From a virus, in the IMG/VR virus record IMGVR_UViG_3300037882_000973, positions 1 through 33,663 of that record: DNA of 33,663 bases; one strand, 5' to 3'. Under the pieces are notes generated by a model, which ran no database searches, was not told the origin of the DNA, and was given only the letters and a program-made list of their open reading frames with translations. The position numbers and the translations under genes were made by a program. This document shows positions 380-33,663 of the stretch, one piece after another. The stretch's first letter is position 1. The number at the start of each line of letters is the position of its first letter.

Positions 380-383
380 CTTT

Positions 384-1933: not shown

Positions 1934-1943
1934 TTAAGACTCC

Positions 1944-2201: not shown

Positions 2202-2211
2202 TTTAGACTCC

Positions 2212-8890: not shown

Positions 8891-8892
8891 AT

Positions 8893-9375
8893 TTATCCCC
8901 TTGAAAAGCTAAAATAGTGAAAATTCTCTTGATCTAACCCGTATGGTTTTGCTTCATCGATTTTAGCATTAATTACTTTTAACCAAGCGATGCTTTTAGT
9001 ATTTTTTGTATGTACATAATTAAATAAAAACGGATAAAATGAAAGCATCATATCTACAAACCTCCTACTTAACCTTATAAAAGTTATCTTCATACATTCT
9101 AACTTGTCGCTTGCTAGCAACCATATAATCGCCTTATTACCTGTTAAATCCTCTGCATGTATACCAAACATTGCTACAACCTCTTTTTTATATTCAACTG
9201 TTAGGCACAATACTGAATTTTTAATTCCTTCATATAATCCTTTGTGTGGCGTTACATGATTCGAAGCCCAAATTTCTTTGCGATCTGACTCACGTAAGCG
9301 AGGAGCCAGGTAATCAGCATCTGATAGTTTTGAAGAACGTACAGTAGTATTAGCTTTTTCATAGTAAATCACCAT
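8893..9375 (-). CDS. DUF2833 / T7 gp13-like protein with acetyltransferase-like fold
   Basis: 160 residues. The order APRLRESDRKEIWAS, a GIKNSVLCLTVEY strand, VVAMFGI, AIIWLLASD, FIRLSRRFVDMMLSFYP and NTKSIAWLKVI matches the DUF2833 family, to which T7 internal virion protein gp13 is usually related and which has a GNAT-like fold. The position between the tail nozzle gene and the gp14-like gene is the same as in T7. Catalytic acetyltransferase activity is not implied. The start codon overlaps the nozzle-gene stop by one nucleotide. Confidence 0.8.
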   Translation of the reverse strand: MVIYYEKANTTVRSSKLSDADYLAPRLRESDRKEIWASNHVTPHKGLYEGIKNSVLCLTVEYKKEVVAMFGIHAEDLTGNKAIIWLLASDKLECMKITFIRLSRRFVDMMLSFYPFLFNYVHTKNTKSIAWLKVINAKIDEAKPYGLDQENFHYFSFSRG

Positions 9376-12353: not shown

Positions 12354-12356
12354 CTA

Positions 12357-12614
12357 TTATCCTAAAAGAGTTTTTTCAGATTCCTTAACTTCACCTTCTA
12401 ATAGCTCAACCTCAAATTCTTCGGCGTATTCACTCTTTTCGACCCTGGTAATTTTTCCTTTAAAAACCAAGGTAATCTCTTGTTCTAAATCTACATCCCC
12501 ATTCATCAATGATAATGGAAGACGAACATATGGATATCTAACATTTTCTTTATCTTCACCTACCATTGATGGGTACATATCTGTTGTTTTGTTTTTTATT
12601 CCTAAGTTTTTCAT
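12357..12614 (-). CDS. small beta-rich structural protein (85 aa)
   Basis: 85 residues containing VRYPYVRLPLSLMNG, then EQEITLVFKGKITRVEKSEY and FEVELLEGEV: a short beta-barrel-like pattern (tyrosine-proline opening, then paired strands around a KGK turn). Similar small proteins occur among phage head and tail genes, where some staple or decorate capsids, but I cannot name the family. It lies 2-3 nt from its neighbours, the adaptor and nozzle genes, so a head-tail interface role is plausible. Confidence 0.7.
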   Translation of the reverse strand: MKNLGIKNKTTDMYPSMVGEDKENVRYPYVRLPLSLMNGDVDLEQEITLVFKGKITRVEKSEYAEEFEVELLEGEVKESEKTLLG

Positions 12615-12616
12615 AG

Positions 12617-13222
12617 TTATCTAGCCTCAATATATTTACATTCCATTTCTTCCTTCTTCGGCTTTTCCGAGAAAGATAATCTTTTTGCATCCGAAATCAT
12701 AACGTTATAAAGTTGACCTGCCTCAATACCTTTATCTTTTGCACCTGTCAAAGTAACAGCCATTGCAGAAGCTAATCTATAAACAAGAGCCATGACAAAT
12801 TGAGTTGTCCATAATGTTGTATCTGTAACCTTATATGTATACTCAGCATAGGCATCCTCTAAATCGGTATATATTGCCGTAACAGCCAAGGTAGGAATAT
12901 ATTTAACTGTAAATTCTTGCTGATCCTTCGTATTAGCAGTTGCTTCATTATAAACATGCCACATAGTGCTAACAGCAAGCGTCACATCTGGATAAGAATA
13001 ACAATATTCCCATTTAATATCATCCACATCTAAAGCGGTCAACGCTTGGGTAACTGTAGCAAATGACCAATTATTAGCCCCTAAAACCTCATCACGACAA
13101 GGCTCATACCAATCATTAGCTGCAACAGCTGACGGATGAGCATCAGCTGTTAATTGCGCTTGACTAATTGTAGCCTGGCCTAATGTAGATAATGAGAGAT
13201 TAATAATCTGTAAAGACGTCAT
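12617..13222 (-). CDS. tail tubular protein A / head-tail adaptor (gp11-like)
   Basis: 201 residues. It opens MTSLQIINLSLSTLGQATIS and has the typical early helix (AANDWYEPCRDEVLGANNWSFAT) of gp11-like podovirus adaptor proteins, followed by beta strands (YCYSYPDV.., FTVKYIP) and a C-terminal helix (FVMALVYRLASAMAVTLTG). Adaptors form a dodecameric ring below the portal and connect to the nozzle encoded two genes downstream. It overlaps the upstream gene by ATGA. Confidence 0.85.
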   Translation of the reverse strand: MTSLQIINLSLSTLGQATISQAQLTADAHPSAVAANDWYEPCRDEVLGANNWSFATVTQALTALDVDDIKWEYCYSYPDVTLAVSTMWHVYNEATANTKDQQEFTVKYIPTLAVTAIYTDLEDAYAEYTYKVTDTTLWTTQFVMALVYRLASAMAVTLTGAKDKGIEAGQLYNVMISDAKRLSFSEKPKKEEMECKYIEAR

Positions 13223-13542
13223 ACTTTATATTCTTTCATGCTTGTCATTGGTTTACTATCACCCATGCCAGATGCCATGCCTATATTTAAAGGAAATCCA
13301 CTATTTTGCATTTCAGAGAAATTCTCAACATCTTTACTTTGAATTGGTTTCATGGGATCATTGACATTTTCATTTGTTGTTGTAATCACATTTGTTCTCA
13401 CAGGAACATTTAAAGGTGGTTGACCATCTACAATTACAAAATGATGGTTAGGAACAAAATCTGATTTTAACATTTCCCCTTTTTCCCATTTACGACCATA
13501 AGCAAAACATGTTCTAATGCATTGATAAACCCGCTGTGTCAT
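13219..13542 (-). CDS. small virion-operon protein of unknown function (107 aa)
   Basis: 107 residues. The N-terminal part (QRVYQCIRTCFAYGRKWEKGEML) is a short beta-hairpin-like motif seen in many small phage structural genes. The C-terminal half is polar and methionine/serine-rich and probably disordered. AGGGA lies upstream of the ATG, just past the terminator that follows the cement gene. It is translationally coupled to the adaptor gene. Function not recognised. Confidence 0.7.
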   Translation of the reverse strand: MTQRVYQCIRTCFAYGRKWEKGEMLKSDFVPNHHFVIVDGQPPLNVPVRTNVITTTNENVNDPMKPIQSKDVENFSEMQNSGFPLNIGMASGMGDSKPMTSMKEYKV

Positions 13543-13556
13543 AAAATTCCCTTTCT

Positions 13557-13604
13557 TTAAATAAAGGGGGAAGGCATGGCCAAGCCAGCCATACTCTCCC
13601 CCTT
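13557..13604 (-). terminator. intrinsic terminator after the capsid/cement genes
   Basis: On the minus strand AAGGGGGA and TCCCCCTT pair around a 25-nt loop that can itself fold (GGCTTGGCC), followed by TTTATTT. It lies between the cement gene and the next gene, the same place as T-phi after gene 10 in T7. A partly efficient terminator here would keep capsid transcripts in excess over tail transcripts. Confidence 0.8.
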
Positions 13605-13612
13605 ATTATTAA

Positions 13613-14044
13613 TTACAACAAATAACGATCAGTGCCAATGAATCTATTGACATCTGTAGTAATAAATGATGTCCATGCACCAGCATTGAAATTATTGCTG
13701 ACATCCCGTGTAACTAAATTATACGCACGAAGGTATCTCTTAGCATTAACAGGAATACGAACAGCCCACACCTTACCAGCAGTCAGCTGAGTAGGTGTAA
13801 ATGCAGCTGATTGTACTAAGGTTGTGTCATTTCCAACTCCTAAAAATTCATCAGAACTAGTCTGAAGCTGTACATTAAGCGTTGGTGTTCCGTTCAAAGC
13901 AGCAAATGCAGTGCTTACTTGAAACACGAACCAACATCCCACATAAGCATCGCCAGCGGCAAGCGTATCAATGACGTCAGTATGTGCAACAGATGTTGTA
14001 GTTGTTTGCGCTGAGGCAAATTGTGCTAATGCGTCTAAAAACAT
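13613..14044 (-). CDS. Bbp16-like capsid cement (decoration) protein
   Basis: 143 residues starting MFLDALAQFASAQTTTTSVAHTDVIDTL. The short amphipathic N-terminus, then VFQVSTAFAALNGTPTLNVQLQTS, the conserved PVNAKRYLRAYNLV strand and the SFITTDV ending match the Bbp16-type cement proteins that stabilise BPP-1-like capsids, recognised by eye. The start at 14044 is chosen over the in-frame ATG at 14071 because AAAGGAGAG lies just before it. It follows the major capsid gene, as in BPP-1. Confidence 0.8.
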   Translation of the reverse strand: MFLDALAQFASAQTTTTSVAHTDVIDTLAAGDAYVGCWFVFQVSTAFAALNGTPTLNVQLQTSSDEFLGVGNDTTLVQSAAFTPTQLTAGKVWAVRIPVNAKRYLRAYNLVTRDVSNNFNAGAWTSFITTDVNRFIGTDRYLL

Positions 14045-14096
14045 ATTACTCTCCTTTGGGCGGTGTCTCATTAAGACCGAGGCCCTTTATTGGTTA

Positions 14097-15143
14097 TTAT
14101 CGAGAATGGACGCTAATCGCCGACTCGGTTTCCAGAATTGCATCATGACGACGGCATGGAATACCATAGAAATTTAATTCAGGTCTACGGCTAATTCCTG
14201 CTGGTGCAATTAATTGCTCCATTGTCAAATGCAGATTAGATTTATCTTGTTGCTTAACACGCAAGATAGACTTTGTATTACGTGACATATAGAAGACAGG
14301 TGTTACGCTTCCATCATCAGGTAACAAATCAAGAGCCTTACTCATATACTTCATAATATTTGCAGAAGTATCCGAGCTATCACTTGCGGTGTTAAGGTTA
14401 GATACGTCAATGTTGGCAATGCGCACAACATATCTATAATCATGCACAGCCAAACCGCATAACCATTGCATCCAGCTAACATAGGCTCTCATATAAGAAC
14501 CAGTTGATGTATTAATCAGGATGTCTTGAATCCCACGATCTTCATACTGAAGACCAGCCTTAGAGCCTTTAGGATAGATACCTGTAACGCGTCCTTCGCC
14601 GTGACCTACAAGCCAGATGGACGTATTATCAGAACCCGTACCACCAGCATCTATGATTTGAGCTGAAGTTGTCCAAGTTGTTCCAAGGGTAAAATAACGT
14701 GTAGCCAAACCGTTAAATTCCTTTGGATCATCCGCAGCATTACCATAGATGAAATGTTCAGCCAAGGAATCAGAGAATCCTCGAATCATCTTTTCATCTT
14801 GTAACATACGGAAAGATTCTGTATTGCCGTTCAAGGAAGCCACGTTCGTATCAATGTGATGACGATTTTCTAAAATAGAACAAGCGTCATTAATTTGACC
14901 AGTGGTTGACTTGGTAGGCACAACGCCAGCGTTCAGAGAACGCAACGAAGGTGCTGCAATACTAGTTTCAACGGTAGTCTGGTTCCCTGTTGATAAATTA
15001 CCTTCCATCCAAACAACGTCATCTAAGAATGCATTATATTGCTGCAATACCTTTGCAATCTTAGCAACACGCAATTTACCATCTGGATCAAGAGCGCGAG
15101 CTACATCGAGCAGTGTTGGTCTTGATGTTCCTAGTGTAGACAT
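14097..15143 (-). CDS. major capsid protein (HK97-fold, BPP-1 Bbp17-like)
   Basis: 348 residues. The protein opens LLDVARALDPDGKLRVAKIAKVL and contains DVVWMEGN, then the conserved block SILENRHHIDTNVASLNG and FSDSLAEHFIYGNAADDP, and ends with FYGIPCRRHDAILETESAI. This is the pattern of Bbp17-type major capsid proteins of podoviruses, which adopt the HK97 fold. GGAGG lies upstream of the ATG. Its neighbours (scaffold upstream, cement downstream) are the expected partners. Confidence 0.9.
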   Translation of the reverse strand: MSTLGTSRPTLLDVARALDPDGKLRVAKIAKVLQQYNAFLDDVVWMEGNLSTGNQTTVETSIAAPSLRSLNAGVVPTKSTTGQINDACSILENRHHIDTNVASLNGNTESFRMLQDEKMIRGFSDSLAEHFIYGNAADDPKEFNGLATRYFTLGTTWTTSAQIIDAGGTGSDNTSIWLVGHGEGRVTGIYPKGSKAGLQYEDRGIQDILINTSTGSYMRAYVSWMQWLCGLAVHDYRYVVRIANIDVSNLNTASDSSDTSANIMKYMSKALDLLPDDGSVTPVFYMSRNTKSILRVKQQDKSNLHLTMEQLIAPAGISRRPELNFYGIPCRRHDAILETESAISVHSR

Positions 15144-15173
15144 AAGATTATTCCTCCTGCGGTCTTATACCGC

Positions 15174-15968
15174 TTATTTGAATTTCATGGTTGCTTTACT
15201 TGACGGGTGATCGTATAGCGATTGTTCCTCGACACCCGAATTATTACTACCTTCGACGAATGTATCTTCGCCTAACAACTTACCAGCTTCGATAATAGAC
15301 TTGAGCATCACGGGGTTATTACCGATTTTGGTTTCCTGCATTAATACGCGTAGTTCATTGGATTTCTTGCCATCTTCACCAACAACTTCCGCACCACCGA
15401 ACCGGTCCATAAACTTAGCTGCAAAAACCATATCAGTCTTAGCATTGCTGCCAAGCATCTTAACCGATTCAGCCTTCCAATCTTCGCCTTGCTTATGCCA
15501 AGCATCGATTGCTTCCTTCTGCTGTGCTTCAACCTGTGCTTTCATTACTGGAGCATAGGCTTCAGCTAGCTTCTGAACCTGAGCGTTTGTAAGCCCCATC
15601 TCCTTAAACGTAGGAGACAACGCTTCTAACGTTTCAGGCTTTACTTCAAACCCCTCGACTTTTACTTCGTATTTTTCAGGAACAGTATTAGCCTTTGCGT
15701 CTGCTTGCGCTTTGACAAGGGCTTGTTTTTTAGCCAAATCTTCTGGCGTTAGTGTCTTATCATCGGCATCAAGCAAGCGTTTCTCCTCTGCCTTTGCAGT
15801 GGCTTCGGTTGCCTCACGCGCTAATTTCTGCTCAGGTGTTTCCGAAGGGTTCTCTACTTCCTTACCAGCTCCACCTAATAGCGTATCGTCACTCGTAGCA
15901 TCATCTGCCACAGGTGCTTCAACGGTTGGTGTCTCTGGCGCTTCTACGACTTCTTTGACTTCATCCAT
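15174..15968 (-). CDS. scaffolding protein
   Basis: 264 residues, acidic, with a low-complexity P/E/T/A-rich N-terminus (about 1-80), a short globular segment (YEVKVEGFEVKPETLEAL, FKEMGLTNAQVQKLAEAYAP), a helix rich in A, Q and E, and a conserved-looking C-terminus ending in basic residues (SSKATMKFK). This is the usual build of phage scaffold proteins that sit directly upstream of the capsid gene. The first about 100 residues are probably disordered. AAGGAGAG precedes the start. Confidence 0.85.
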   Translation of the reverse strand: MDEVKEVVEAPETPTVEAPVADDATSDDTLLGGAGKEVENPSETPEQKLAREATEATAKAEEKRLLDADDKTLTPEDLAKKQALVKAQADAKANTVPEKYEVKVEGFEVKPETLEALSPTFKEMGLTNAQVQKLAEAYAPVMKAQVEAQQKEAIDAWHKQGEDWKAESVKMLGSNAKTDMVFAAKFMDRFGGAEVVGEDGKKSNELRVLMQETKIGNNPVMLKSIIEAGKLLGEDTFVEGSNNSGVEEQSLYDHPSSKATMKFK

Positions 15969-16013
15969 GATGCTCTCTCCTTGTTTGGCAATCTAATTCA
16001 TCCATAAATATGG

Positions 16014-16358
16014 CTAAACCAGATCCCCCGTATTATTATCTTTTTCAATTCGCTCAATAACTTCTTCTGATTTAATCTCAGATGCCCGTTCATCTTGCAT
16101 CTGTTTCAAAGCATTAGGGTCTGCCTCTAATAAATCATTCAAAAAATCCCTGCTAAGTGACTGTCTCCCTAGGTTATAATTCGTCGTATAAATATCTTCT
16201 CCACAGAAGGCATCTCTAAATACTCCGCCTTTTTCCATCATCCGCCAATAAAATCTCCTGCCTTCTGGTGTCTGTATAACTCGACGTATGTCTGATAACT
16301 CACGCTCTCTACGCTTATCTAATCTCTTAATCTTCCGTTCTTCTTTATTATCAATCAT
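16014..16358 (-). CDS. Bbp19-like phage protein (114 aa)
   Basis: 114 residues. After a basic N-terminal helix, the core IRRVIQTPEGRRFYWRMMEKGGVFRDAF, then NYNLGRQSLSRDFLNDLLEADPNA, follows the Bbp19 family pattern (TPEGRR.F...L, G.F, EG/LGRR, then a helix ending in P). These genes lie between portal and scaffold in BPP-1-like phages; their role is not established. The start overlaps the upstream 35-codon gene by one nucleotide. Confidence 0.8.
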   Translation of the reverse strand: MIDNKEERKIKRLDKRRERELSDIRRVIQTPEGRRFYWRMMEKGGVFRDAFCGEDIYTTNYNLGRQSLSRDFLNDLLEADPNALKQMQDERASEIKSEEVIERIEKDNNTGDLV

Positions 16359-16465
16359 TAAAATCCTCTAACAGACGAAATTAAACATATTGAAAATGTA
16401 AGCATAAATATAAAAACCACAATTAAAAACCATCTTAAAATATTAATGAATGTATAAAGCTTCAT
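16358..16465 (-). CDS. 35-aa single-pass membrane protein
   Basis: ATG at 16465, stop shared with the next ATG (TAATG). The peptide MKLYTFINILRWFLIVVFIF continues with MLTFSICLISSVRGF. Residues about 7-30 are one strongly hydrophobic helix with basic residues at both ends. TAATG coupling on both sides makes it very likely to be translated. A 35-residue single-pass protein could be a mini-holin or a membrane anchor, but its place between portal and Bbp19-like genes is unusual for lysis. Confidence 0.65.
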   Translation of the reverse strand: MKLYTFINILRWFLIVVFIFMLTFSICLISSVRGF

Positions 16466-16635
16466 TATCTATTCCTTCTAAATATCTCCTTAGGACCAAG
16501 CTGTTCTTCTATATCAATAGGTACAGGCGACGTTGAAACTTCTAATACTTCTGAAATCTTTTGGTCTATAACTTCTTCAAGAGAAACATCCTTACCTTTA
16601 TCTGAATATATTTTATCGGTTATTTCTATACCCAT
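16465..16635 (-). CDS. small acidic protein downstream of portal (56 aa)
   Basis: ATG at 16635 overlaps the portal stop (TAATG) and the stop overlaps the next start (TAATG). 56 residues: MGIEITDKIYSDKGKDVSLE, a helix EEVIDQKISEVLEV and an acidic PVPIDIEEQLGPKEIF tail. No family is recognised. Reading-frame continuity and coupling on both sides support a real gene. Confidence 0.65.
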   Translation of the reverse strand: MGIEITDKIYSDKGKDVSLEEVIDQKISEVLEVSTSPVPIDIEEQLGPKEIFRRNR

Positions 16636-18311
16636 TAACCGCCCGCCTGTGCTTGTGCTGTTGCTGATAGGTTATCCAGTACGCTACCCTGTCCAGCCGG
16701 TGTAGTACCCAAATCCTTTGCTGCCCCTGCCATTTCAACACCAGCCTGCAACGCCATAGCCTGATTCTGTTGCTCTACCGCTGCCTCTATCTGAGCATCA
16801 ACTATTTCTTTAGGTACAATCAGTTTAGCCTGTATTCCGTTAAGTGAAGCAACCTCACGAATAGACTCTTGCACATCCATAACAAATCTAGCATTCGGGT
16901 CAATGCTCATTGCTTGACCAACGTATGCCAATGTTCTTTCGATGTCCTGTACACCCATCGCACGCTGTGCTTGTGCTAAAATTGAAATATACTGTATCCT
17001 TACCTCATGTCCTTCAATGCCTTCAGGCGGTTCAGGTATTAATCCATTATCAAGCATAATATCGAATATCAAATCAATCGAACGAGCGTGCATCTCCTCA
17101 TTTAAATTATGTAATATCGGCCCTAACATCATCATCTGCTCTTGCTTACGGGTTGCAATCTCAAACGCAGTAGTTGTGCTATTTACAGGCATGCTGCTAA
17201 TCATCAAAAACAAATCACTAAACATTAATTTATTAATCTTCTGATATAACAACTGTATCGACTCTTGCATCTCCCTTAATCGAGGATCAATCTGATATGC
17301 CGCACGCACACCGCTATTCTGAACATTCAAGGAACTCTTTGTTACCCCACCTGGCAACGTATTCGAGTGACCAACAATGCTAGAATCCTCAACCTTGGGT
17401 GGGTTATACGCCTTCTCTTCGGCAATCAAATAATCCTTAACCTTAATCTGTAGCTGTTTAATATCACCAATTGCATGCCAGCTTGGACCATAACCATAAA
17501 TCATATCAGTCGTAATCGCATCCCAACGTGGGGCTATGACAGGAAATCTTTTATACCCACGATGCGACAAAATACCTTCGCCACCAGACTCCCAATATAT
17601 CGACCTAAACGGCATGTTCTTAAAATCTTCACGACCTGCAATGCGCGTATCATTCGCTTCAATCAAGTGATTACACTTAATATTAATGTCAATCTGGTTA
17701 TTATTAAAGTGCGTCTTAACCGTAGACGAACAACTTTCATACCCAAACTCTTTAACTAAATTACCGACAGTCATTTCAAATTCGCGGGCGAACGCATTTA
17801 TACGGCCTTTTTCATCAACCCTTAAGAAATATTCCCCGCAAGTGAACGAACGCCCGCGAATTACATCGTCGTAGTCTTCCAGTATCAAAAAGCATCCAGT
17901 ACCAAACTCAACTAATTCATCATAACAATTCTGAAACGTCTTATAGATATTAGATTTATTCATGATCTCAAGCATACGGCGAGATACTTCATCGAGCCAT
18001 TCACGCACACCTGGAACGTTATCAAGCAAAAAATTATCCATCGTCAGCTTAAACCACGGCCTAGCAGGGTCCGTCATTCCTGTCTGCATACCACTTGCCG
18101 TGATACGTTTCGCATTGGTAGCATGGCTATCAATCAACAGCTTGTGATTAATCATCTGACCAATCTTCATTCGATTGTTATTAAATATACCGCGTGTCTG
18201 GTCAATATAATCGGATAACGTACTCCATCCTTGAATCCATCGCATCGCATAGAGCTTCATCGCCTTGAATGACTTTTCAAACTCTTGCTTCTGGGTTATG
18301 TTATATTTCAT
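16635..18311 (-). CDS. portal protein (head-to-tail connector)
   Basis: 558 residues, the usual length for podovirus portals. It begins with helical MKLYAMRWIQGWSTLSDYID, then MKIGQMINHKLLIDSHATNAKRITASGMQTGMTDPARPWFKL, the strongly conserved N-terminal block of the Head-tail_con family, followed by FGTGCFLIL and the stem/crown helices (KVKDYLIAEEKAYNPP). The C-terminus is A/Q-rich. Portals form the dodecameric channel for packaging. Its first codons overlap the 3' end of the small zinc-finger gene at 18301-18480. Confidence 0.92.
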   Translation of the reverse strand: MKYNITQKQEFEKSFKAMKLYAMRWIQGWSTLSDYIDQTRGIFNNNRMKIGQMINHKLLIDSHATNAKRITASGMQTGMTDPARPWFKLTMDNFLLDNVPGVREWLDEVSRRMLEIMNKSNIYKTFQNCYDELVEFGTGCFLILEDYDDVIRGRSFTCGEYFLRVDEKGRINAFAREFEMTVGNLVKEFGYESCSSTVKTHFNNNQIDINIKCNHLIEANDTRIAGREDFKNMPFRSIYWESGGEGILSHRGYKRFPVIAPRWDAITTDMIYGYGPSWHAIGDIKQLQIKVKDYLIAEEKAYNPPKVEDSSIVGHSNTLPGGVTKSSLNVQNSGVRAAYQIDPRLREMQESIQLLYQKINKLMFSDLFLMISSMPVNSTTTAFEIATRKQEQMMMLGPILHNLNEEMHARSIDLIFDIMLDNGLIPEPPEGIEGHEVRIQYISILAQAQRAMGVQDIERTLAYVGQAMSIDPNARFVMDVQESIREVASLNGIQAKLIVPKEIVDAQIEAAVEQQNQAMALQAGVEMAGAAKDLGTTPAGQGSVLDNLSATAQAQAGG

Positions 18312-18480
18312 TTTTACCTATATTAGTCGGTGGTGGGATATATGGTTTTTTAAGTTTATCTGTTAATCTCTTCTCGCACTCGTGTAAATGTATAACGAAA
18401 TATGCCTTTGTCCCATGTACGAAACAACCGCAATATCCGCAAAACTTATCGCTAACATCAATATTATCAATATCAGCCAA
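18301..18480 (-). CDS. 59-aa zinc-finger-like protein with TTG start
   Basis: An open frame that starts with TTG at 18480, preceded by AGGGAG at 8 nt, and overlaps the proline-rich gene by 8 nt upstream and the portal start by 11 nt downstream. The protein reads (M)ADIDNIDVSDKFCGYCGCF with CxxC at residues 14-17, an extra Cys19, then HLHEC at 31-35: a plausible C2HC-type zinc site. The tail KKPYIPPPTNIGKNEI is basic and proline-rich. A DNA- or protein-binding accessory of packaging is possible. It fills an otherwise unexplained 160-bp gap. Confidence 0.6.
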   Translation of the reverse strand: MADIDNIDVSDKFCGYCGCFVHGTKAYFVIHLHECEKRLTDKLKKPYIPPPTNIGKNEI

Positions 18481-18718
18481 GCACTGTTCTCCCTTGAGAT
18501 GTAGGTTGAAGTTCTGGCGCTCCTCCAGTTATTCCACGTGGGCCAGTCTTTAGTGTGCTAGATAATCCATATTGTAATGTCTGCAGCTTCTTCTTACGCT
18601 CGGATTGCGTCTGCTGTGAAACTTCAGTAGGTAAAACTGTTGGAGGTGGAGGAATAACCGCCGGTGGTGGTGGCGGCGGTGGCGCTGCTGGCATCTTTGG
18701 TTGAGAGAAGAAACACAT
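18473..18718 (-). CDS. proline-rich small protein between terminase and portal (81 aa)
   Basis: 81 residues: MCFFSQPKMPAAPPPPPPPA, further prolines to about residue 30, then a polar, basic second half (SERKKKLQTLQYGLSSTLKT) ending GRTVLG. Short proline-rich proteins occur at this position in several podovirus genomes, function unknown. The Cys2 after Met could be lipid-modified only in a signal context, which is absent here. Likely an extended linker or virion accessory. Confidence 0.7.
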   Translation of the reverse strand: MCFFSQPKMPAAPPPPPPPAVIPPPPTVLPTEVSQQTQSERKKKLQTLQYGLSSTLKTGPRGITGGAPELQPTSQGRTVLG

Positions 18719-18720
18719 AG

Positions 18721-18762
18721 TTAATATCCCCGCTTAACTGGCTTAGTAGGTTTCTTTTTCAT
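18721..18762 (-). CDS. possible 13-residue basic micro-ORF
   Basis: GGAGG lies 6 nt before an ATG at 18762 that opens a 13-codon frame (MKKKPTKPVKRGY) ending in TAA, 2 nt before the next gene's start. The ideal ribosome site has no other gene to serve. The peptide is strongly basic. It may be a real micropeptide or only a translational-coupling leader for the proline-rich gene. Confidence 0.35.
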   Translation of the reverse strand: MKKKPTKPVKRGY

Positions 18763-18781
18763 ATAACCTCCGTATTGTTTC

Positions 18782-18821
18782 CAAAGAAAAAGAGACACCC
18801 GCACGGCCGCGAATGTCTCTT
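18782..18821 (-). terminator. intrinsic terminator between large terminase and portal operon
   Basis: On the minus strand AAGAGACA (18821-18814) pairs with TGTCTCTT (18797-18790) around a GC-rich 16-nt loop, followed by TTTTCTTT. It ends the transcript of candidate RNA C and any read-through from the terminase gene. Confidence 0.75.
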
Positions 18822-18867
18822 ATTTATTCTCTGGGGTTAGGGGATCAATCCTAACCTATAAATCCTT
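18782..18867 (-). ncRNA. candidate small RNA / attenuator leader C
   Basis: A promoter at 18874-18901 would start an RNA of about 85 nt beginning near AUUAAGG and ending at the terminator 18782-18821. Its centre folds as GGUUAGG/CCUAACC (18856-18850 with 18841-18835). The RNA begins near GGGAU and contains AUCCC, a layout shared with RNAs A and B. It could be a free small RNA or an attenuated leader of the portal operon. No known family is recognised. Confidence 0.4.
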
Positions 18868-18873
18868 AATCCC

Positions 18874-18901
18874 AAATTAAGCCTAAATTAATATTTTGCA
18901 A
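18874..18901 (-). promoter_or_regulatory. candidate sigma70 promoter for RNA C / portal operon
   Basis: Minus strand: TTGCAA (18901-18896), 16-bp spacer, TAATTT (18879-18874). It lies just beyond the large terminase stop in AT-rich DNA. The match is moderate. Confidence 0.4.
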
Positions 18902-18913
18902 TATTTATTTTGA

Positions 18914-20521
18914 TTATTTTCGCATGATATCCTTCCAGTCACCTGAGCCAGTCGTAATAGGTTCTCTGTAAATATTGCTATCCTGTGGCTTGCGATTCAA
19001 AGGATCATAGTCCTGATCTGATACAACAGTCGGTATCGCTAACGGCACGGTTTGTGTCACCATTGGAAATACGGCTTTTAAATCCTCATCCGTTATGCGC
19101 GCTATGCAATCGAGCATATCATCATGAGCGCTGACCGGGAAATCACAATACTCTTCATCAATCAATACTTTTATAAAATCTACAGTCTTACCATCAACAC
19201 TATTAAACAATAACCGTGCAGGTGTATAAAACCGATGCTGTTCAAATATTGGAACTAACCGGCGTATGCGATCATTCTTAGGCATTGCGCCACCAAGCGG
19301 TGTTATTTCAAATCTATATCCTTCTTGCTCTTGAACATATTTAATATGCTCAATATCAGAATCCTTCCCGTATTTCTCATAACCAACAACACTAGGACGC
19401 CACTTACGATGAAATCCCATCAACGCCGTTGCCCTCTGTGTTAAATTTAAACGGTCACGAATCCCATCAACTAAATAATAATTCTTATCAGGAGCCAGTC
19501 CAATCACTACCATAACTGTGTAATCAGATGTTTTCTTCTTTTCTCCGGCGGGGTCAACTAATAGGTAGAAATTCCATCCTTCATAGTTTTTTAGTACGTG
19601 GTATGTCATTAACCAATCGACTTTGAAACCCATGAGTTTATCAGCGACTGGATTCTGAAGCATTTGGCAACCGTATACGTATTCGGCCATGTCTGTGCGC
19701 TTCTTAAGTAACGCTTCTTTAGACATTAATATTGATTTCCCCTCAACAGCAAGATCATCACGACCCTTATCTGTTGGATAATAATATCTTGGTTTAGCTG
19801 TACCACGTTCAATAATCGTTCTATATGTGTCGTTGGCATGATAACGTGTTCCGGTGAATCTTACCTTGCATGGCCTATTACCTTTACGACCTTGAAGATT
19901 ATAAGAAATCCCAATAGCCTCTGTCGTCTTTGCAATCATCTCGGGCGATGTCACAGACTCACGGACAACAACGTCATCATAGGACATGATCGAGAAGTGA
20001 GAAGCCGTAGGCTGGCCATCAACTAATCCCCACGCTTCAAACGTAGCCTCTTTAGGATTTGTCTTGCGCTTTAATATAATTCCACCATCTAAAGACCATC
20101 GCGGTGATTCTTTCCTTGGGTCTTGATATAAAATGTCAGGGAATAAATCTTTTAAGAATTTGTTATTTTCTAACTCAGAGGATATTTGAAAAAGGAATTT
20201 CTTAGCGATAGGACGCGTGTGGCTAAATATGCCTACCGTTTCTTCAGGGTCATTAAGAACATCTTGAACATTCTTACCAAATGTTATGATTGTTGATTTA
20301 TAAGCTTCACGAAACCAAAGATCAATGTGTCCATCAGGACTAGCTTCAACTTCTCGACATCTTTCGTATAGCCAAGGATGGTTTATGTCGGGTCTCTTAA
20401 AGCCTATCGTCAATAAAAAGAATAAATCAGTAAGGCACAATTCCTTCATCGCCTTAGTATCATCATCTTTTAATATTTTGAAATATAGTTCGTTTGACTG
20501 GTCGCGGGTGAGTTTAGCCAT
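18914..20521 (-). CDS. terL: terminase large subunit
   Basis: 535 residues. The ATPase domain has a variant Walker A (REAYKST, residues 71-77) and Walker B FSIMSYDDV (177-185). The RNase H-like nuclease domain has LLVDPAG (Asp323), GYEKYG (Glu382) and SAHDDMLD (Asp467/468), the three acidic positions that bind metal. The motor drives DNA into the procapsid through the portal encoded downstream. It overlaps the small subunit gene by 8 nt. The length is typical of podovirus large terminases, and no key residue is missing. Confidence 0.93.
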   Translation of the reverse strand: MAKLTRDQSNELYFKILKDDDTKAMKELCLTDLFFLLTIGFKRPDINHPWLYERCREVEASPDGHIDLWFREAYKSTIITFGKNVQDVLNDPEETVGIFSHTRPIAKKFLFQISSELENNKFLKDLFPDILYQDPRKESPRWSLDGGIILKRKTNPKEATFEAWGLVDGQPTASHFSIMSYDDVVVRESVTSPEMIAKTTEAIGISYNLQGRKGNRPCKVRFTGTRYHANDTYRTIIERGTAKPRYYYPTDKGRDDLAVEGKSILMSKEALLKKRTDMAEYVYGCQMLQNPVADKLMGFKVDWLMTYHVLKNYEGWNFYLLVDPAGEKKKTSDYTVMVVIGLAPDKNYYLVDGIRDRLNLTQRATALMGFHRKWRPSVVGYEKYGKDSDIEHIKYVQEQEGYRFEITPLGGAMPKNDRIRRLVPIFEQHRFYTPARLLFNSVDGKTVDFIKVLIDEEYCDFPVSAHDDMLDCIARITDEDLKAVFPMVTQTVPLAIPTVVSDQDYDPLNRKPQDSNIYREPITTGSGDWKDIMRK

Positions 20522-21033: not shown

Positions 21034-21258
21034 ATGATATATAAATTACCGGATGGATATATAGAGATTAGAGACTCAGGCAATACGTATTGCGGACGAA
21101 TAGCCCATAATATTAGGCACAAAGCCTCTCAAGTGCATAGAGATTGCAAGAAAGATATGTCTGAGATATTCCAACGAAACGTTGAGATTGATTATAACAA
21201 AACATTACTCTATATATTGAAAGAATTTATAAAGGAGATGCAAAATGAAAAAAAATAA
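21034..21258 (+). CDS. small hypothetical protein, first gene of the pilin operon (74 aa)
   Basis: 74 residues: MIYKLPDGYIEIRDSGNTYC, then GRIAHNIRHKASQVHRDCKK and an amphipathic C-terminal helix (YNKTLLYILKEFIKEMQNEKK). GGGGAG lies upstream of the ATG. No family is recognised. It is cotranscribed with, and overlaps by 14 nt, the prepilin-like gene, so the two proteins are made together. It has no membrane segment or signal. Confidence 0.65.
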   Translation: MIYKLPDGYIEIRDSGNTYCGRIAHNIRHKASQVHRDCKKDMSEIFQRNVEIDYNKTLLYILKEFIKEMQNEKK

Positions 21259-21646
21259 CCGAGGACTAAGTCTCACAGAAATAACAGTTGTACTGATAAT
21301 TATAGGGATACTGGCTGTAATATCCGTACCTGTTTTTGCCAATATCGACAGGGGCAAGGCAATCCCTGCGTTGTCCAAGATGAGGATGATTAAGGACGAT
21401 ATTATTATGTGCCTTACGGAGGGCGGGCAGTGTGACCAGTGGGGGCATTGGGTGGAGGCGGATGGGATTAAGCACTGGGTTGGGATTAGCTCTCCTGAAC
21501 CTGTGGATGGGCATTTTGACTACACGTATATTTTGGTAGGCGACGAGTATACGATTGTGGCCAACCTCAAAGATAGGCCAGCGGATAAATTAGTGTTAAC
21601 CACCTCAGGCTGTGATGGGTTTGGGGTGTTCCAAGGAGGGTGTTAA
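21245..21646 (+). CDS. type IV prepilin-like protein (pseudopilin)
   Basis: 133 residues. The N-terminus MKKNNRGLSLTEITVVLIII is a textbook prepilin: a short basic leader, Gly7 as the prepilin peptidase site, then +1 Leu, Glu at +5 (Glu12) and an uninterrupted hydrophobic helix to about residue 31. The rest is a globular head with Cys56, Cys63, Cys123 and Cys133; the last two could form the C-terminal disulphide loop typical of pilins. The second half is visibly richer in G than the surrounding DNA (21410-21560), suggesting recent capture. AGGAG precedes the start. A host peptidase would have to process it; it could join or poison host type IV pili or type II secretion pseudopili. Confidence 0.88.
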   Translation: MKKNNRGLSLTEITVVLIIIGILAVISVPVFANIDRGKAIPALSKMRMIKDDIIMCLTEGGQCDQWGHWVEADGIKHWVGISSPEPVDGHFDYTYILVGDEYTIVANLKDRPADKLVLTTSGCDGFGVFQGGC

Positions 21647-27341: not shown

Positions 27342-27514
27342 TGACTCTCAAAGAGCTATCAAAGAGAATCGATAATCACGTTAAAAAAATCAATGAACAA
27401 ACCGAAATCATTAAATCCATTGATAAAAAAATATGGACTCCTATTAAAAACGAAGGCCAATCTGATATGAAACCATTAGACATGTGCGGTTTCGAAAATT
27501 GGAGGAATGATTAA
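27341..27514 (+). CDS. small hypothetical early protein (57 aa)
   Basis: TAATG junctions at both ends and AAGGAGG upstream make this 57-codon frame secure. The protein reads MTLKELSKRIDNHVKKINEQ, TEIIKSIDKKIWTPIKNEGQ, then a short tail ending CGFENWRND. The first 30 residues are a predicted coiled coil. Function unknown. Confidence 0.65.
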   Translation: MTLKELSKRIDNHVKKINEQTEIIKSIDKKIWTPIKNEGQSDMKPLDMCGFENWRND

Positions 27515-27867
27515 TGAGAATATTCATCCTAATAATCTTAATATTGTCTGGCTGTGGTGTAGCTGAAGCTAAACAAGAGAAAATAGCAGGCTACTCTATT
27601 AATCAATGGGTAGACGCCATACGCAAAGCAGAAGGGAATGACAACTACGGCATTCTATCAATCAAATGTACGCCAGGCGAAGACTGCCGAAAAATATGCG
27701 CCAATACAGTTAGAAATAATTATAAAAGATGGATTAAAGCGGGTAAAAAAGGAACGTATCTCTTATTCCTTGCGAACAGGTATTGTCCGATCGGCGCCAG
27801 CAATGACCCTTCTGGGCTTAATAGACACTGGCCTAAGAATGTTAAGTATTTTTTAGAAAGAGGTTAG
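27514..27867 (+). CDS. putative lipoprotein with lysozyme/transglycosylase-like domain
   Basis: 117 residues. The N-terminal hydrophobic signal ends in a lipobox (LSGC, Cys14). The mature part has WVDAIRKAEGNDNYGILSIK, then ICANTVRNNYKRWIKAG, FLANRYCPIG and a closing NRHWPKNVKYF. This pattern recurs in small phage and plasmid proteins. The Glu in KAEG followed by YGI resembles the catalytic Glu region of lytic transglycosylase/lysozyme folds. If active, it would cut peptidoglycan from the outer-membrane or periplasmic side. It is an early-operon gene, so an exclusion or envelope-remodelling role is as likely as lysis. Enzyme activity is inference. Confidence 0.6.
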   Translation: MRIFILIILILSGCGVAEAKQEKIAGYSINQWVDAIRKAEGNDNYGILSIKCTPGEDCRKICANTVRNNYKRWIKAGKKGTYLLFLANRYCPIGASNDPSGLNRHWPKNVKYFLERG

Positions 27868-28779: not shown

Positions 28780-29229
28780 ATGGAAGTTGTTATAAATGTA
28801 TGCTACGGAGGATTTAGTTTATCCGCTATGGGCATCAATAAGTACGCTGAATATATTGGAAAGAAAGCCTACTTTTTCCATGGTGGATTAATAGAGATTT
28901 ATAGACCAATAACTTTAGAAGAAGCCCAATCTTCCTTATTTTTTTCAGCTTTTAGTGTTCCAAATCCAAATGATTACTTAAAGAGAAACAAGGATGGATT
29001 TTTTACTAAGGAAGCTAATGAAGAATATCAAAAAATAGTTTTACCTAGCGGACGAGAATTAGAAAGAAATGACCCTATCTTAATAAAAGTAGTTAAGGAG
29101 CTTGGCAAAGAAGCAAATTCTAGGTGTGCTGAGCTTAAGGTTATAGAAATACCTAATGACATTCAGTGGCACATAGAAGATTACGATGGGGTAGAGCATA
29201 TTGCTGAAAATCATAGGACTTGGAGTTAA
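28780..29229 (+). CDS. conserved phage protein of unknown function (149 aa)
   Basis: 149 residues. The opening INVCYGGFSLSAMGINKYAE and the ending DIQWHIEDYDGVEHIAENHRTW are hallmarks of a small phage protein family common near recombination genes in many phages. The central part is less regular. The DIxWxIEDYDG segment looks like a beta-hairpin with an acidic pocket. The biochemical role is unknown; its position between exonuclease and RecT suggests a recombination- or host-related accessory. GGGGA precedes the ATG. Confidence 0.75.
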   Translation: MEVVINVCYGGFSLSAMGINKYAEYIGKKAYFFHGGLIEIYRPITLEEAQSSLFFSAFSVPNPNDYLKRNKDGFFTKEANEEYQKIVLPSGRELERNDPILIKVVKELGKEANSRCAELKVIEIPNDIQWHIEDYDGVEHIAENHRTWS

Positions 29230-29246
29230 TAAAAAGGAGAAATAAA

Positions 29247-30326
29247 ATGGCACAAGAACTAAAACCAATCGATGAAATCCGTGGTACACTAACAAAAATG
29301 GAGAGTGAGTTAAAGTCTGCCCTTCCTTCTTATATTACGCCTGAAAAATTTAAACAGGTCGTAGTAACTGCATTGCAATTAAATCCAACGTTATTAACCC
29401 TAGATCGCGCTTCTTTATATACTGCGTGTCTCAATTGTGCCTCAGATGGCCTCCTGCCAAATGGACGTGAGGCAGCTTTAGTTCCTTTTAAAGGAACTAT
29501 AAAATATATGCCGATGGTAGGTGGAATATTAAAGCTTATTCGTAATTCCGGGGAACTATCTACTGTAGACGCAATTACGGTCCATGATAAAGATCAATAT
29601 GAAGCATACAATGACGAACATGGGGCTCATTTTAAACATGTTAAGGCGCGTGGTGATCGTGGTTTACCGATTCTTACTTATGGTTACGCAAGAACTAAAG
29701 ATGGTGCTTTTTATTTCGAAGAAATTACAGAAGAAGAAATTAAAATTATAGCTAAAAAAGGCAACGAAAAATTCTCAGCATGGCAAGGTGATTTTATTGA
29801 CGAAATGCGACGTAAGACAGTATTAAAACGTTTAGCTAAAAGATTACCTAAATCTACAGATTTGGAACGTGCTATAGATCACGATAATGAAATGTACGAA
29901 GTAGAAGTGCCTGTGTCTGAACCACCCACAACATCCTCCAAACTCGCCGAAGCTGTAGCACCAGCACAGGCAGAGGAGGCAGTCGTTAAACCAGTATCAA
30001 CGCCTATTCCAGAGCCACAAGAACAGCCGTATAGCTACACAGATAGTAATGGAAAACTAATCGCCAAAGGCTTAATCGAAAAACTAGACATTAAACACAG
30101 TCCTGATGGTTCTGCTAAGAAATGGACTAAATTTTCTTGCCTTTTAAATGATAAATGGTACTCAACTTTTAGCGAAACGCTCTATAAAAAAGTAACAGAA
30201 TTTGCTGATAAACGGGTACTGGTTAATTTAGAATATAAGACCAAGGTTGTGGGTGAGAATACGTATTATGAGATTGTTGATTGTAAGGCGCAGGTGGCTG
30301 GGGTGGATGTGGAGGTGCCGATATGA
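29247..30326 (+). CDS. recT: RecT-family single-strand annealing protein with C-terminal extension
   Basis: 359 residues from the ATG at 29247 (AAGGAG upstream; the in-frame ATG at 29220 has no ribosome site). The RecT core is residues about 1-215: PSYITPEKFKQVVVTALQLN, ASLYTACLNCASDGLLPNG, AALVPFKGTIKYMPMVGGIL and WQGDFIDEMRRKTVLKRLAK. After a proline/alanine linker (about 225-265), residues 268-359 form a separate beta-rich segment (LIAKGLIEKLDIK, KWTKFSCLLNDKWYSTFSE, RVLVNLEYKTK) that resembles an OB-type fold. Such a fusion could add single-strand DNA-binding or protein contacts. Works with the YqaJ exonuclease upstream. Confidence 0.9.
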   Translation: MAQELKPIDEIRGTLTKMESELKSALPSYITPEKFKQVVVTALQLNPTLLTLDRASLYTACLNCASDGLLPNGREAALVPFKGTIKYMPMVGGILKLIRNSGELSTVDAITVHDKDQYEAYNDEHGAHFKHVKARGDRGLPILTYGYARTKDGAFYFEEITEEEIKIIAKKGNEKFSAWQGDFIDEMRRKTVLKRLAKRLPKSTDLERAIDHDNEMYEVEVPVSEPPTTSSKLAEAVAPAQAEEAVVKPVSTPIPEPQEQPYSYTDSNGKLIAKGLIEKLDIKHSPDGSAKKWTKFSCLLNDKWYSTFSETLYKKVTEFADKRVLVNLEYKTKVVGENTYYEIVDCKAQVAGVDVEVPI

Positions 30327-30580
30327 TAGAGAAATTTGGTACAAAAACAATGATTCTTGATGGCAAACCACCTTTTGTAAAGAAACGTAAAGGAACTAAA
30401 TTTATCACTGAAATACCTCCTGAATCAGGAAGGTGCGTTTCTATGATGGAATACAAAGGTCAAGTTTTGCTAGCAACTGAGAAACATATTTATCAATTAA
30501 GTAACGATAAAGTATTCAAGGAAATTAAATTCCAACTAATCAACAAAAAGGAGACAAAGAAATGCCAAAAGGAAAAGTAA
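30323..30580 (+). CDS. small hypothetical protein (85 aa)
   Basis: 85 residues, starting inside the RecT stop (ATGA). Basic N-terminus ([20 protein letters not shown]) followed by beta-strand repeats ([20 protein letters not shown]) that look like a small propeller blade or SH3-like element, and a lysine-rich tail. The cold-shock gene starts within its last 19 nt. No family is recognised. Confidence 0.6.
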
Positions 30581-30768
30581 AATTCTTCAACGATGTAAAA
30601 GGTTACGGCTTCGTTACTCCAGATAATGGCGGAAAAGATATATTCGTGCATTATTCAGGGATTAAGAATAACGGTGGACGTAAGACGCTTAAAGAAGGAG
30701 CATCGGTTGAATTTACTATTATCGAAGGCCAAAAAGGCCCACAAGCTACTGATGTATCGGAGGTTTAA
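30562..30768 (+). CDS. cold-shock domain protein (CspA-like)
   Basis: 68 residues, full-length cold-shock domain: [20 protein letters not shown] contains RNP1 (KGYGFVTP), and [10 protein letters not shown] is RNP2 (DIFVHYS). Strand and loop lengths are normal, with the final SEV closing the barrel. Binds single-stranded RNA or DNA and can act as an RNA chaperone or antiterminator. In this phage, with several hairpin leaders and terminators, an antitermination role is conceivable but untested. AAAGGAG precedes the start. Confidence 0.92.
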
Positions 30769-32217
30769 TTGGAATACTTAATAATCGTAGCTTTAAATTT
30801 AATCCTCTATTACCGCACAGTCAAATTCTTCTTAGTAGCCGACGACCTATCATGGTACTTAAAACAGCCAGGACTATGGAAATTCAAGCATATAGATAGC
30901 CCAAAACATTTCTTTATGTGGCTTAAGCAACGTCTGTACGGTGGTTTTACGTTTGGACAGAACGTCAAGCTAGAGCATTTTATTACGACTATCATTCATA
31001 CAATCGTTTCGGTTATGATTTACCACGCGTTCGGAGCTAACCAGATATCGTTCTGGGCCGCGATTTTATATTCATGTAATCCGATAAATAACCAGACATC
31101 TGTGTGGCTTAACGGTCGTAGGTATAGCATTAATATTATTCTTGTCCTAGCCATTGTTATGCTTATAGAGGTTAAATTCGGCTGGGCTTACGCTTTAGGA
31201 TTATACGCCTTCACAGCGGTTTTCCACATGACAGCGGTATTCGCTCCAGTATTATTATTATGGAAGTATCCATTAATAGGTTTAGCTATAGCTGTTTTAG
31301 TGGTATTGAATTTAAAGAAATTTATTAGATTGCTTAATGAACGTCTTAAAAAGATCCATGACTTAGATCGGAGAAACTTTACTCCACAGCGTTTAATTGT
31401 CATAGTTAAAACATACGGTTATTATTTCTTCAAAATGTTCTTTCCAGGCGTATGTGCCATGACATATCCAACGCTTCATTTTTGGGGACAAACTAAAGAA
31501 GGGAATAAAGATGCGTATTCGTTTAATATTGAGTTCTATAAAGGTTGCTTGGCTTTCGTTATATGTATTGGCATTATTTCTTATTTTATTAATGTGCAAG
31601 ATTATAGAATACTGTGCTTCTGGGTTTTTATGTGCTTATCGCTATTGCAATGGTGTCAAATCATAGCCATATTCCAAGACTTAGCAGATCGGTACGCTGG
31701 CATGGCTACGGTTTTCGGCATGTTTTTTCTGTCTTTTTTTGTTCATACCTACGCCGGACAGTACGCAACAGCCATATTAGGAGTGTTCGCAGGGTACTAT
31801 ATCGCCATGCTATTCATAGTCATGCGAATGTACCGTAGCGAAGGAGCTAGATGGGAATACCAAAGACACTGGTTCCCTCAATTACCAGCACCTTTAAAGT
31901 TTGAGAACGAATATTTAATACATGATGCTAAGGATTTTCCTCGAGCCTGGGTATTAATTCAAGATTATCTAAAACATGGTGGGCGTGATTTTAATATTCT
32001 ATTTCAAGCGGCTAAATGCCACCAAGCTGTAGGTCGTTATGAGGAAGCTAAGAAATTCGCTATGGAAGCAGCTAAGAACTATCTTCTATATAAAGAGAAC
32101 ATCCAGAAGAAATTAGTTGAAGATTTTTTGGTACATTGTAGACCTCCTAGCGGAATGATTATTGGAGAAAAAAGCAGACAAGTTAAGAGATATGAAGAAC
32201 GTAAGAACAAAAAATAG
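30769..32217 (+). CDS. TMTC-like GT-C membrane glycosyltransferase with C-terminal TPR
   Basis: 482 residues from a TTG start with CGGAGG 6 nt upstream, directly after the cold-shock gene. About 8-11 transmembrane helices in residues 1-370. After the first helix is the Asp pair VADDLSWY (Asp25-Asp26), the catalytic position of GT-C enzymes. HFITTIIH (70-77), ILYSCNPINNQTSVWLNGRR (99-118) and FHMTAVFAPVLLLW (152-165) follow the order of TMTC-type (HXXN..LH, LFAxHPxxxEAVAWxSGR, SKExAVxLPxxLL) proteins. Residues about 405-440 make one TPR-like helix pair (NILFQAAKCHQAVGRYEEAK). Such enzymes move lipid-linked sugars onto proteins or glycans outside the cytoplasm. Very unusual for a podophage. Substrate unknown. 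Confidence 0.75.
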   Translation: MEYLIIVALNLILYYRTVKFFLVADDLSWYLKQPGLWKFKHIDSPKHFFMWLKQRLYGGFTFGQNVKLEHFITTIIHTIVSVMIYHAFGANQISFWAAILYSCNPINNQTSVWLNGRRYSINIILVLAIVMLIEVKFGWAYALGLYAFTAVFHMTAVFAPVLLLWKYPLIGLAIAVLVVLNLKKFIRLLNERLKKIHDLDRRNFTPQRLIVIVKTYGYYFFKMFFPGVCAMTYPTLHFWGQTKEGNKDAYSFNIEFYKGCLAFVICIGIISYFINVQDYRILCFWVFMCLSLLQWCQIIAIFQDLADRYAGMATVFGMFFLSFFVHTYAGQYATAILGVFAGYYIAMLFIVMRMYRSEGARWEYQRHWFPQLPAPLKFENEYLIHDAKDFPRAWVLIQDYLKHGGRDFNILFQAAKCHQAVGRYEEAKKFAMEAAKNYLLYKENIQKKLVEDFLVHCRPPSGMIIGEKSRQVKRYEERKNKK

Positions 32218-33332: not shown

Positions 33333-33663
33333 ATGATAAATAGTCTAACCAAAGAACAAGAAGAAAAGCTATTAGAACATCGAGCAGAGTACCTCAAATG
33401 GGGATTATCTTGCGAACCAATAGATAAAAAGTTAGCAACAGAATCTATAGCTAAAATGTATGGCTTAATAAATAAAAAATCTCCTTATTTTTGGGTATGT
33501 GATAGTCCTCTTCAAATCCAGTTAGTAATACATATATTAAAGAATATTAAATTAGAAAAAGGGGCCAATCTCAGTAACAATCTCGGGGACAATCTCTGGG
33601 CCAATCTCGGGGACAATCTCAGTAACAATCTCGGGAACAATCTCTTGGCCAATCTCAGGGCCA
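33333..33663 (+). CDS. DUF6745-like protein with NLxx tandem repeats, partial (runs off window end)
   Basis: Starts at 33333 with GGGAGGAAG upstream. Residues 1-75: LTKEQEEKLLEHRAEYLKWG, SCEPIDKKLATESIAKMYGL, then FWVCDSPLQIQLVI. The LT.EQE, EPID...A and CDSP motifs match the N-terminus of DUF6745-type proteins known from phages and bacteria. From residue 79 it becomes a tetrapeptide repeat NL(S/G/W/L/R)(N/D/A), eight units in view, which would fold as a solenoid-like or extended rod. Repeat length probably varies. The gene continues outside the window. Confidence 0.7.
   Translation, partial: MINSLTKEQEEKLLEHRAEYLKWGLSCEPIDKKLATESIAKMYGLINKKSPYFWVCDSPLQIQLVIHILKNIKLEKGANLSNNLGDNLWANLGDNLSNNLGNNLLANLRA
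33567..33662 (+). repeat. 12-bp tandem repeat array (AATCTC + 6), 8 units in view
   Basis: Eight in-frame 12-bp units each starting AATCTC followed by six variable bases (AGTAAC, GGGGAC, TGGGCC, GGGGAC, AGTAAC, GGGAAC, TTGGCC, AGGGCC). AATCTC is invariant while the other six bases vary within a small set. Confidence 0.85.

Follow-up and report, generated by a model that had tools for sequence, protein, structure and literature searches.

A GT-C glycosyltransferase-like membrane protein with a C-terminal TPR domain in a podophage belongs to a viral family with a putatively remodelled active site

The window analysed here, a virus record of 33,663 bases taken at its full length, carries podovirus structural genes on its minus strand, in accordance with the podophage setting assumed in the earlier note. 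As identified with PHROGs, they comprise genes for the portal (phrog_332), tail (phrog_394/376), internal virion proteins (phrog_308/418), the major head protein (phrog_212), and the terminase (phrog_38). The gene described in this work, located on the plus strand at positions 30769–32217, is a genuine ORF, intact and open for 482 aa. This gene, its internal features, and the neighbouring genes referred to below are as follows.

21245–21646, plus strand: prepilin-like ORF (PF07963, E 2.6e-7) carrying a motif for N-methylation; the adjacent structural genes lie on the other strand
27514–27867, plus strand: small exported protein with a lipobox-like signal; homologues lie beside the GT-C gene in L027 and L028
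27869–28777, plus strand: RecE/YqaJ-like exonuclease (phrog_434, E 1.9e-45)
29220–30326, plus strand: RecT-like annealing protein (PF03837, E 4.2e-29)
30562–30768, plus strand: cold-shock domain protein (PF00313, E 1.7e-25), found near the GT-C gene also in L027 and L028
30759–30763, plus strand: Shine-Dalgarno sequence GGAGG, with the TTG 5 nt downstream
30769–32217, plus strand: GT-C membrane glycosyltransferase-like protein with a C-terminal TPR and a TTG start (ORF, family alignments, profile-profile match, AF2 model, VIA-align)
30841–30846, plus strand: Asp25-Asp26, in the loop that follows TM1, TMTC motif M1 (18/18 viral and 19/19 cellular rows)
30973–30978, plus strand: Glu69-His70, the acidic-His pair closing loop 1 (alignment rows)
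31105–31125, plus strand: WLNGRRY (residues 113–119), loop EL2 (18/18 viral rows; the cellular equivalent is W-I-S-G-R-x-D)
31225–31227, plus strand: His153, loop EL3, at the position of the Lys of the cellular KE motif (alignment rows)
31687–31695, plus strand: Asp307-Arg308-Tyr309, loop EL5, equivalent of the TMTC ERxxY (alignment rows)
31882–32154, plus strand: TPR domain, residues 372–462 (VIA-align to TPR chains; profile match to 2lni, E 9e-5)

The TTG start directly abuts the TAA (30766–30768) of the cold-shock ORF, and the ORF sequence includes no in-frame ATG or GTG upstream of the Asp pair; with GGAGG at its proper place, the TTG start and good ribosome site noted earlier are confirmed. 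All elements of the order proposed in the earlier note are present in the protein, namely TM1, the Asp pair (D25 and D26), an H...H loop (H70 and H77), a P..Q/E..W..GR stretch (P105, Q109, W113, G116, and R117), further membrane helices, and the TPR. These motifs are not due to chance: D25, D26, H70, Q109, W113, G116, and R117 are invariant or nearly so across the rows of the viral family. The protein encoded at 27514–27867, for which no significant Pfam family was found and the only PHROGs match was phrog_27783 (E 0.0066), is one that we take to be lysozyme-like, judging by eye from a motif; its homologue in L027 has no PHROGs match.

The fold of the protein was assessed from its AF2 model (pLDDT 90.0, pTM 0.88). 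In the comparison by VIA-align, each of the top 22 rows is a GT-C enzyme or a complex containing one, aligned to model residues 1–372 with Z scores of 13.8–16.4. The best alignment is with PglB (6gxc; Z 16.4, 292 residues, 4.9 Å), and Pmt4 (9e61; Z 16.3, 295 residues, 4.5 Å), ArnT (5f15; Z 14.8, 287 residues, 4.6 Å), and STT3 are also among the best. Below the GT-C rows are TPR chains, aligned to model residues 372–462. Foldseek gave no match at E ≤ 0.001 for the same model, and a BFVD structure search gave weak matches. On the single sequence the TPR is marginal (TPR_2, E 0.2; ANAPC3, E 0.1), whereas it is clear in the model and with the family profile. The GT-C core joined to a TPR that had been read from the sequence is therefore backed by the AF2 model, by VIA-align, and by the profile homology described below.

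Relatives of the protein were not found by searches with its single sequence. Its membrane part has no match in Pfam, NCBIfam, PHROGs, PDB sequences, or IMG/VR exact peptides, and a search of 50,697 phage records returned nothing; only weak matches were obtained, to TMEM175 (E 0.14) and a cupin (E 0.75). Searches by sequence pattern for RecT and portal found no relatives of this phage. A degenerate DNA pattern for Q...WLNGRRY, applied to IMG/VR, matched 19 contigs, and a relative is encoded in all 19 of them. An alignment-guided scan added one contig, as well as one from a MAG titled Candidatus Omnitrophota (L039), which carries Mu-like phage genes as judged by reading its ORFs. Among the 19 contigs of a second pattern scan, eight were already known, one held a new relative (L050), and ten proved not to be relatives (L040–L047, L049, and L051). 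Two further GT-C-bearing contigs were added by a scan for the two-TM partner described below.

With the window included, the viral family comprises about 21 distinct proteins, encoded on 25 contigs, one of these proteins being common to L005, L007, L012, and L015 and another to L003 and L017. Its carriers are uncultivated phages, plus the phage-like contig in the Omnitrophota MAG; tblastn with three members against isolated phages returned nothing. Among 16 members searched singly, the best PHROGs match was phrog_9961 (E 4.3e-5, one member), followed by phrog_127 (E 8e-4, two members), and no match is common to the family. The family was previously unnamed, has no match in Pfam, PHROGs, or NCBIfam, and is absent from the isolated phages searched; the parts of the literature that the search covered yielded no description of a phage TMTC-like family. 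The earlier note treated the gene as single and unexpected. What was found instead is a family that numerous uncultivated phages carry, often together with a conserved two-TM partner.

Cellular relatives were sought with the profile of a 19-row viral alignment (A2; one row partial) in Omnitrophota, which is the phylum of the L039 MAG by its title. At E ≤ 0.01, 102 of the 193 genomes matched, many of them in ORFs of 450–700 aa; as the search was confined to this phylum, the abundance of relatives is no sign that the phylum is special. In the 19 cellular ORFs examined besides L039, the matches lie in the GT-C part, in the C-terminal part, or, for most, in both. Pfam searches of ten of these relatives found TPRs in nine, PMT_2 above its cut-off in three, a sub-threshold match to TMTC_DUF1736 in one (E 0.007), and no match at all in one. 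PMT_2 (PF13231) has no Pfam match in the window protein or the viral members. Aligned by hhalign, the 19 viral and 19 cellular rows match at 99.9% with E 2.2e-31 over 411 columns, and when the TPR is left out the GT-C part still gives E 3.3e-23 over 306 columns; the controls, eight column shuffles and one reversal, gave E 0.065–0.74. When PDB was searched with the profile of the cellular proteins, the matches listed were TPR chains only. We regard the GT-C fold and the homology to cellular GT-C proteins with TPRs as nearly certain.

In a tree that combines 20 viral rows with 19 cellular ones, in which the root was placed for drawing only and L004 forms a long branch, a stem of length 1.69, supported at 100/100, separates the viral from the cellular proteins. 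Judged from the aligned sequences, the viral group is monophyletic and its active site is remodelled. The residue counts that follow refer to the 18 viral rows, the window among them, in which the loops concerned are covered, to 19 viral rows at EL5, and to 19 cellular rows; since the latter were chosen by their match to the viral profile, the contrast between the two sets is, if anything, understated.

The residues D25, D26, W113, L114, N115, G116, R117, R118, and Y119 are each found in 18 of 18 viral rows, and at EL5 R308 and Y309 are present in all 19 and D307 in 18 of 19. H70 is shared by both sets (17/18 viral, 19/19 cellular), whereas the acid that precedes it at position 69 occurs in every viral row and in none of the cellular ones. 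Position 109 is Gln in 17/18 viral rows and Glu in 17/19 cellular rows, and position 119, always Tyr in the viral rows, is Asp in 10/19 cellular rows. Position 153 is His (10/18) or Gln (8/18) in the viral rows, as opposed to Lys in 14/19 cellular rows; in the column that follows, Glu is present in 12/19 cellular rows and in a single viral one of 18 (three viral rows are gapped here), never after Lys. The Tyr at position 311, found in 18/19 cellular rows, is lost in the viral rows. The viral rows also carry a block of their own in EL4 (WGxTxEGNKDAY). The cellular proteins, which are PMT_2-like and unnamed, resemble the viral family in their full-length profile match, and many match it in both halves; they differ in forming a separate group in the tree and in keeping K-E, E109, and often RxD.

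The motifs M1–M7 of TMTC proteins, as defined in PMC7801869, which describes M4 and M5 as metal-binding, are retained in part. M1 (DD in EL1) is present in the viral rows. M2 (SHKSYRP) is absent from their EL1, which has LYGxGTF instead; M3 (RxD in EL2) is absent, with R117 kept and Y119 in the place of the Asp; and KE of M4 (KE(T/Q)xxT in EL3) occurs in no viral row. No DW of M5 was seen in the viral EL4, which aligns poorly. The Pro of M6 (PxxP in TM9) is found in 2/19 viral and 18/19 cellular rows, and of M7 (ERxxY in EL5) the viral proteins keep DR, with Tyr at +1 and not at +3. C-terminal TPRs are present as in TMTCs, with fewer repeats than in many cellular rows. The TMTC_DUF1736 profile (PF08409), the search for which had been suggested in the earlier note, does not match the window protein at E ≤ 10 or any of 16 members at E ≤ 1, and was found neither in the L039 MAG nor in 14 control genomes. 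Thus, of the earlier description as TMTC-like, the order of elements, the GT-C core, and the TPR stand, as does the Asp pair in the first loop, but the proteins have no PF08409 match and lack several signature motifs of TMTCs (PMC7801869); with these lost and the site rebuilt, the protein is TMTC-like and cannot be classed as a TMTC. With the metal-ligand Glu of M4 essentially absent and the RxD Asp replaced by Tyr throughout, activity is not assured, although we predict that the protein is likely to be an active glycosyltransferase.

Eight peaks are seen in the hydropathy profile and more helices in the AF2 model; both are compatible with 11 TM helices whose conserved loops share one side of the membrane, as in TMTCs. 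Location of the Asp-pair loop on the extracytoplasmic side is implied by, and predicted from, fold homology only, and the positive-inside count does not separate the two sides: the net charges of EL1 and IL3 are +3.5 and +4.6 in the viral rows and −1.9 and +1.1 in the cellular rows. Matches to the Pfam DnaJ_CXXCXGXG family were found in three of 16 members, and a similar pair in L072, all inserted in EL1. These CxxC(xGxG-like) pairs of the DnaJ zinc-finger type, situated beside the active-site loop, occur at least in L008/L027, L016/L030, L020, and L072, which do not form one clade. Such pairs, together with a positively charged EL1, are odd for a periplasmic loop.

The partner is a two-TM protein of about 120–160 aa that has no significant Pfam, PHROG, or PADLOC identity. 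It is present in 10 of 20 records (19 others and the window) and was not found in the window itself. A scan of IMG/VR for the partner returned 15 records, 12 of them with a GT-C gene (11 of 14 once the identical L023/L026 copies are merged), and ten were GT-C records already known. In the other five, L073 has a GT-C gene elsewhere in its record (L086), L082 has one just downstream, and three, which hold the most distant partners and are fragments of 9–13.5 kb, have none. The partner lies directly upstream of the GT-C gene in ten records, with a gap of up to about 150 bases, and apart from it in two, L035 and the record of L073. Its model is a helical hairpin (pLDDT 82.1, pTM 0.52), for which a structure search yielded no informative match among seven chains, with a best Z of 6.9. 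No match was found by PADLOC for three GT-C proteins and two partners, and hence there is no tie to a catalogued defence system. In L082, the ORF that comes right after the partner (8328–9179) encodes a short GT-C of 284 aa that keeps DD, GRRY, and EL5 while a large block of middle helices is gone. The same record also contains, not adjacent to the short GT-C, an ORF (L089, 1–1572) in which a GT2 domain precedes a long extension of repeat-like character.

Of the 22 distinct records examined, 12 have terminase genes adjoining the GT-C gene (L020, L024, L025, L030, L031, L032, L035, L036, L037, L039, L072, and L086), with the large subunit identified by PHROGs in seven, by cluster in four, and by eye in L086. 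In the window, L022, L026, and L028, it is a RecT gene that lies nearby instead. The family is common to T7-like and Mu-like phages, and since the phage backbones differ, the gene or gene pair has either been passed from phage to phage or persisted across deep divergence. In L021, L022, L023, and L026, membrane ORFs on the opposite strand converge on the GT-C gene from downstream, among them an ORF recognized by eye as a papain-like protease in L022, L023, and L026.

The gene probably lets the phage alter the surface of its host cell. By analogy with known phage systems, we tentatively favour glycosylation of the host envelope that masks the phage receptor. The inner-membrane GT-C of this virus-specific family would take a sugar from a host polyprenyl-phosphate sugar, with the invariant Arg of EL5 binding the lipid phosphate and with D25, D26, and the E69-H70 pair binding a metal or base. 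On the periplasmic face, the sugar would be passed on to a host envelope protein or glycan, an acceptor that may be recruited by the TPR or by EL1. The likeliest benefit would be receptor masking, either as superinfection exclusion or as a means of shielding progeny from receptor debris. As virion proteins are made, and virions assembled, in the cytoplasm, the host envelope is a likelier target than the virion.

Most known phage GT-C enzymes are gtr-type modifiers of O-antigen, and in gtr cassettes the gene of a small membrane protein precedes that of a large GT, an order resembling that of the partner and GT-C genes. The gtrABC cassettes of P22 and Shigella phages are likewise phage-borne and encode a GT that acts on the cell surface, although GtrA (PF04138) was found in none of 21 viral records and GT2 (PF00535) in one, that of L089; the records are fragments, and donor genes may lie beyond them. 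Both models work, as they matched control genomes, and the sugar donor would therefore be the host's. The viral GT also differs in having a TPR, and its partner in that it has two TMs and matches no Pfam family significantly. P22 gtrABC provides a precedent for a membrane GT that is carried by a phage and masks its receptor (PMC11436027 and PMC3688519).

Other readings of the same data have to be weighed against receptor masking. An active protein O-glycosyltransferase might act on an exported protein of phage or host origin, for example the prepilin, so that pili and not a receptor glycan would be altered. Protein glycosylation is suggested by the TPRs and PMT_2 matches of the nearest cellular kin and by the action of TMTCs on proteins (PMC7801869), and the window does contain the prepilin ORF to which the earlier note linked the gene. 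That ORF is real, but it lies 9 kb away in another gene block, and its N_methyl motif was found in one of 21 records searched; the pilin link is thus local to the window at best, and we consider this reading improbable. It is equally improbable, in our view, that the genes form a lysis block in which the two-TM protein is a holin-like hairpin and the GT-C tampers with polyprenyl-linked wall precursors alongside late genes. The helical hairpin of the partner model, the frequent proximity to terminase genes, and the small exported ORF, lysozyme-like by eye, that is nearby in three records would fit such a block, as would the arrangement in T7, where the holin gene adjoins that of the small terminase. 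However, the GT-C gene sits with RecT-type genes in four records, the partner lies apart from it in two, and no match to a holin or lysozyme family was obtained.

The metal Glu, PxxP, and the Asp of RxD are lost, and the GT-C of L082 is shortened; these features could also indicate a catalytically dead GT-C that serves as a membrane scaffold or blocker, obstructing for instance DNA entry or a glycosyltransferase of the host. This is rather unlikely; the residues expected in the active-site loops (D25, D26, WLNGRRY, and R308) are the most conserved of all, and the acid-His pair is kept in nearly all viral rows. That the gene is a recently captured host gene, carried as a passenger with no special role in the phage, appears highly improbable: many cellular genomes of one phylum do carry related genes, but the viral proteins form a single, fully supported group on a long stem, and they are common to T7-like and Mu-like phages together with a co-occurring partner. 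Returning to envelope glycosylation, we can speculate on a narrower version, unlikely as a whole, in which the GT-C with its TPR and rebuilt site and a dedicated two-TM protein would constitute a two-component machine that uses a lipid-linked sugar of the host to O-glycosylate a protein of the host envelope. The acidic-His pair of loop 1 would replace the KE site, and unrelated phages would carry the gene pair in their packaging or early block.

Comparison with structurally characterized GT-C enzymes and with TMTC1–4 places the viral proteins apart from both. ArnT, PglB, and Pmt4 share the GT-C core, with Z of 14–16 across about 290 residues, but at 6–10% identity, and the viral protein has a TPR and no domain matching their periplasmic ones. 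Common to TMTC1–4 and the viral family are TM1, the DD loop, the [HN]P...[EQ]...W..GR loop, the [ED]R loop, the C-terminal TPRs, and a compatible count of 11 TMs; the viral family differs in lacking the DUF1736 match as well as SHKSYRP, KE, RxD, and PxxP, and in having one short TPR block, the acidic-His pair, and WLNGRRY. It is a separate monophyletic viral family, kin of the lineage that includes the protein O-mannosyltransferase-like TMTCs. The surprise is not one odd gene but the existence of a GT-C family in viruses that has a distinctive signature in its active site and, frequently, a membrane partner. The altered active site bears on the placement of metal and base in GT-C enzymes, and partner proteins can be approached directly through the two-TM protein that co-occurs with the enzyme.

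As to the phage itself, no tRNA was found in the window. When the DNA of window positions 1–20000 was compared with 285 Omnitrophota genomes, 33 matched at E ≤ 0.01, the best at 69% over 149 bases in a tail gene, and no convincing spacer or prophage was present among these 33. For the major head protein, identity to podoviruses such as vB_PaeP_YA3 and BcepC6B reaches 44% at best, and weaker matches were obtained with the terminase. Two minus-strand ORFs, 1220–1933 and 9375–12353 (residues about 192–401), have a common domain (phrog_24074, phrog_3545); the copy in the latter lies within a tail protein, and this is possibly a binding domain used twice. At positions 33561–33663, the window carries 12-base tandem repeats that encode an asparagine- and leucine-rich stretch running off the end of the record.
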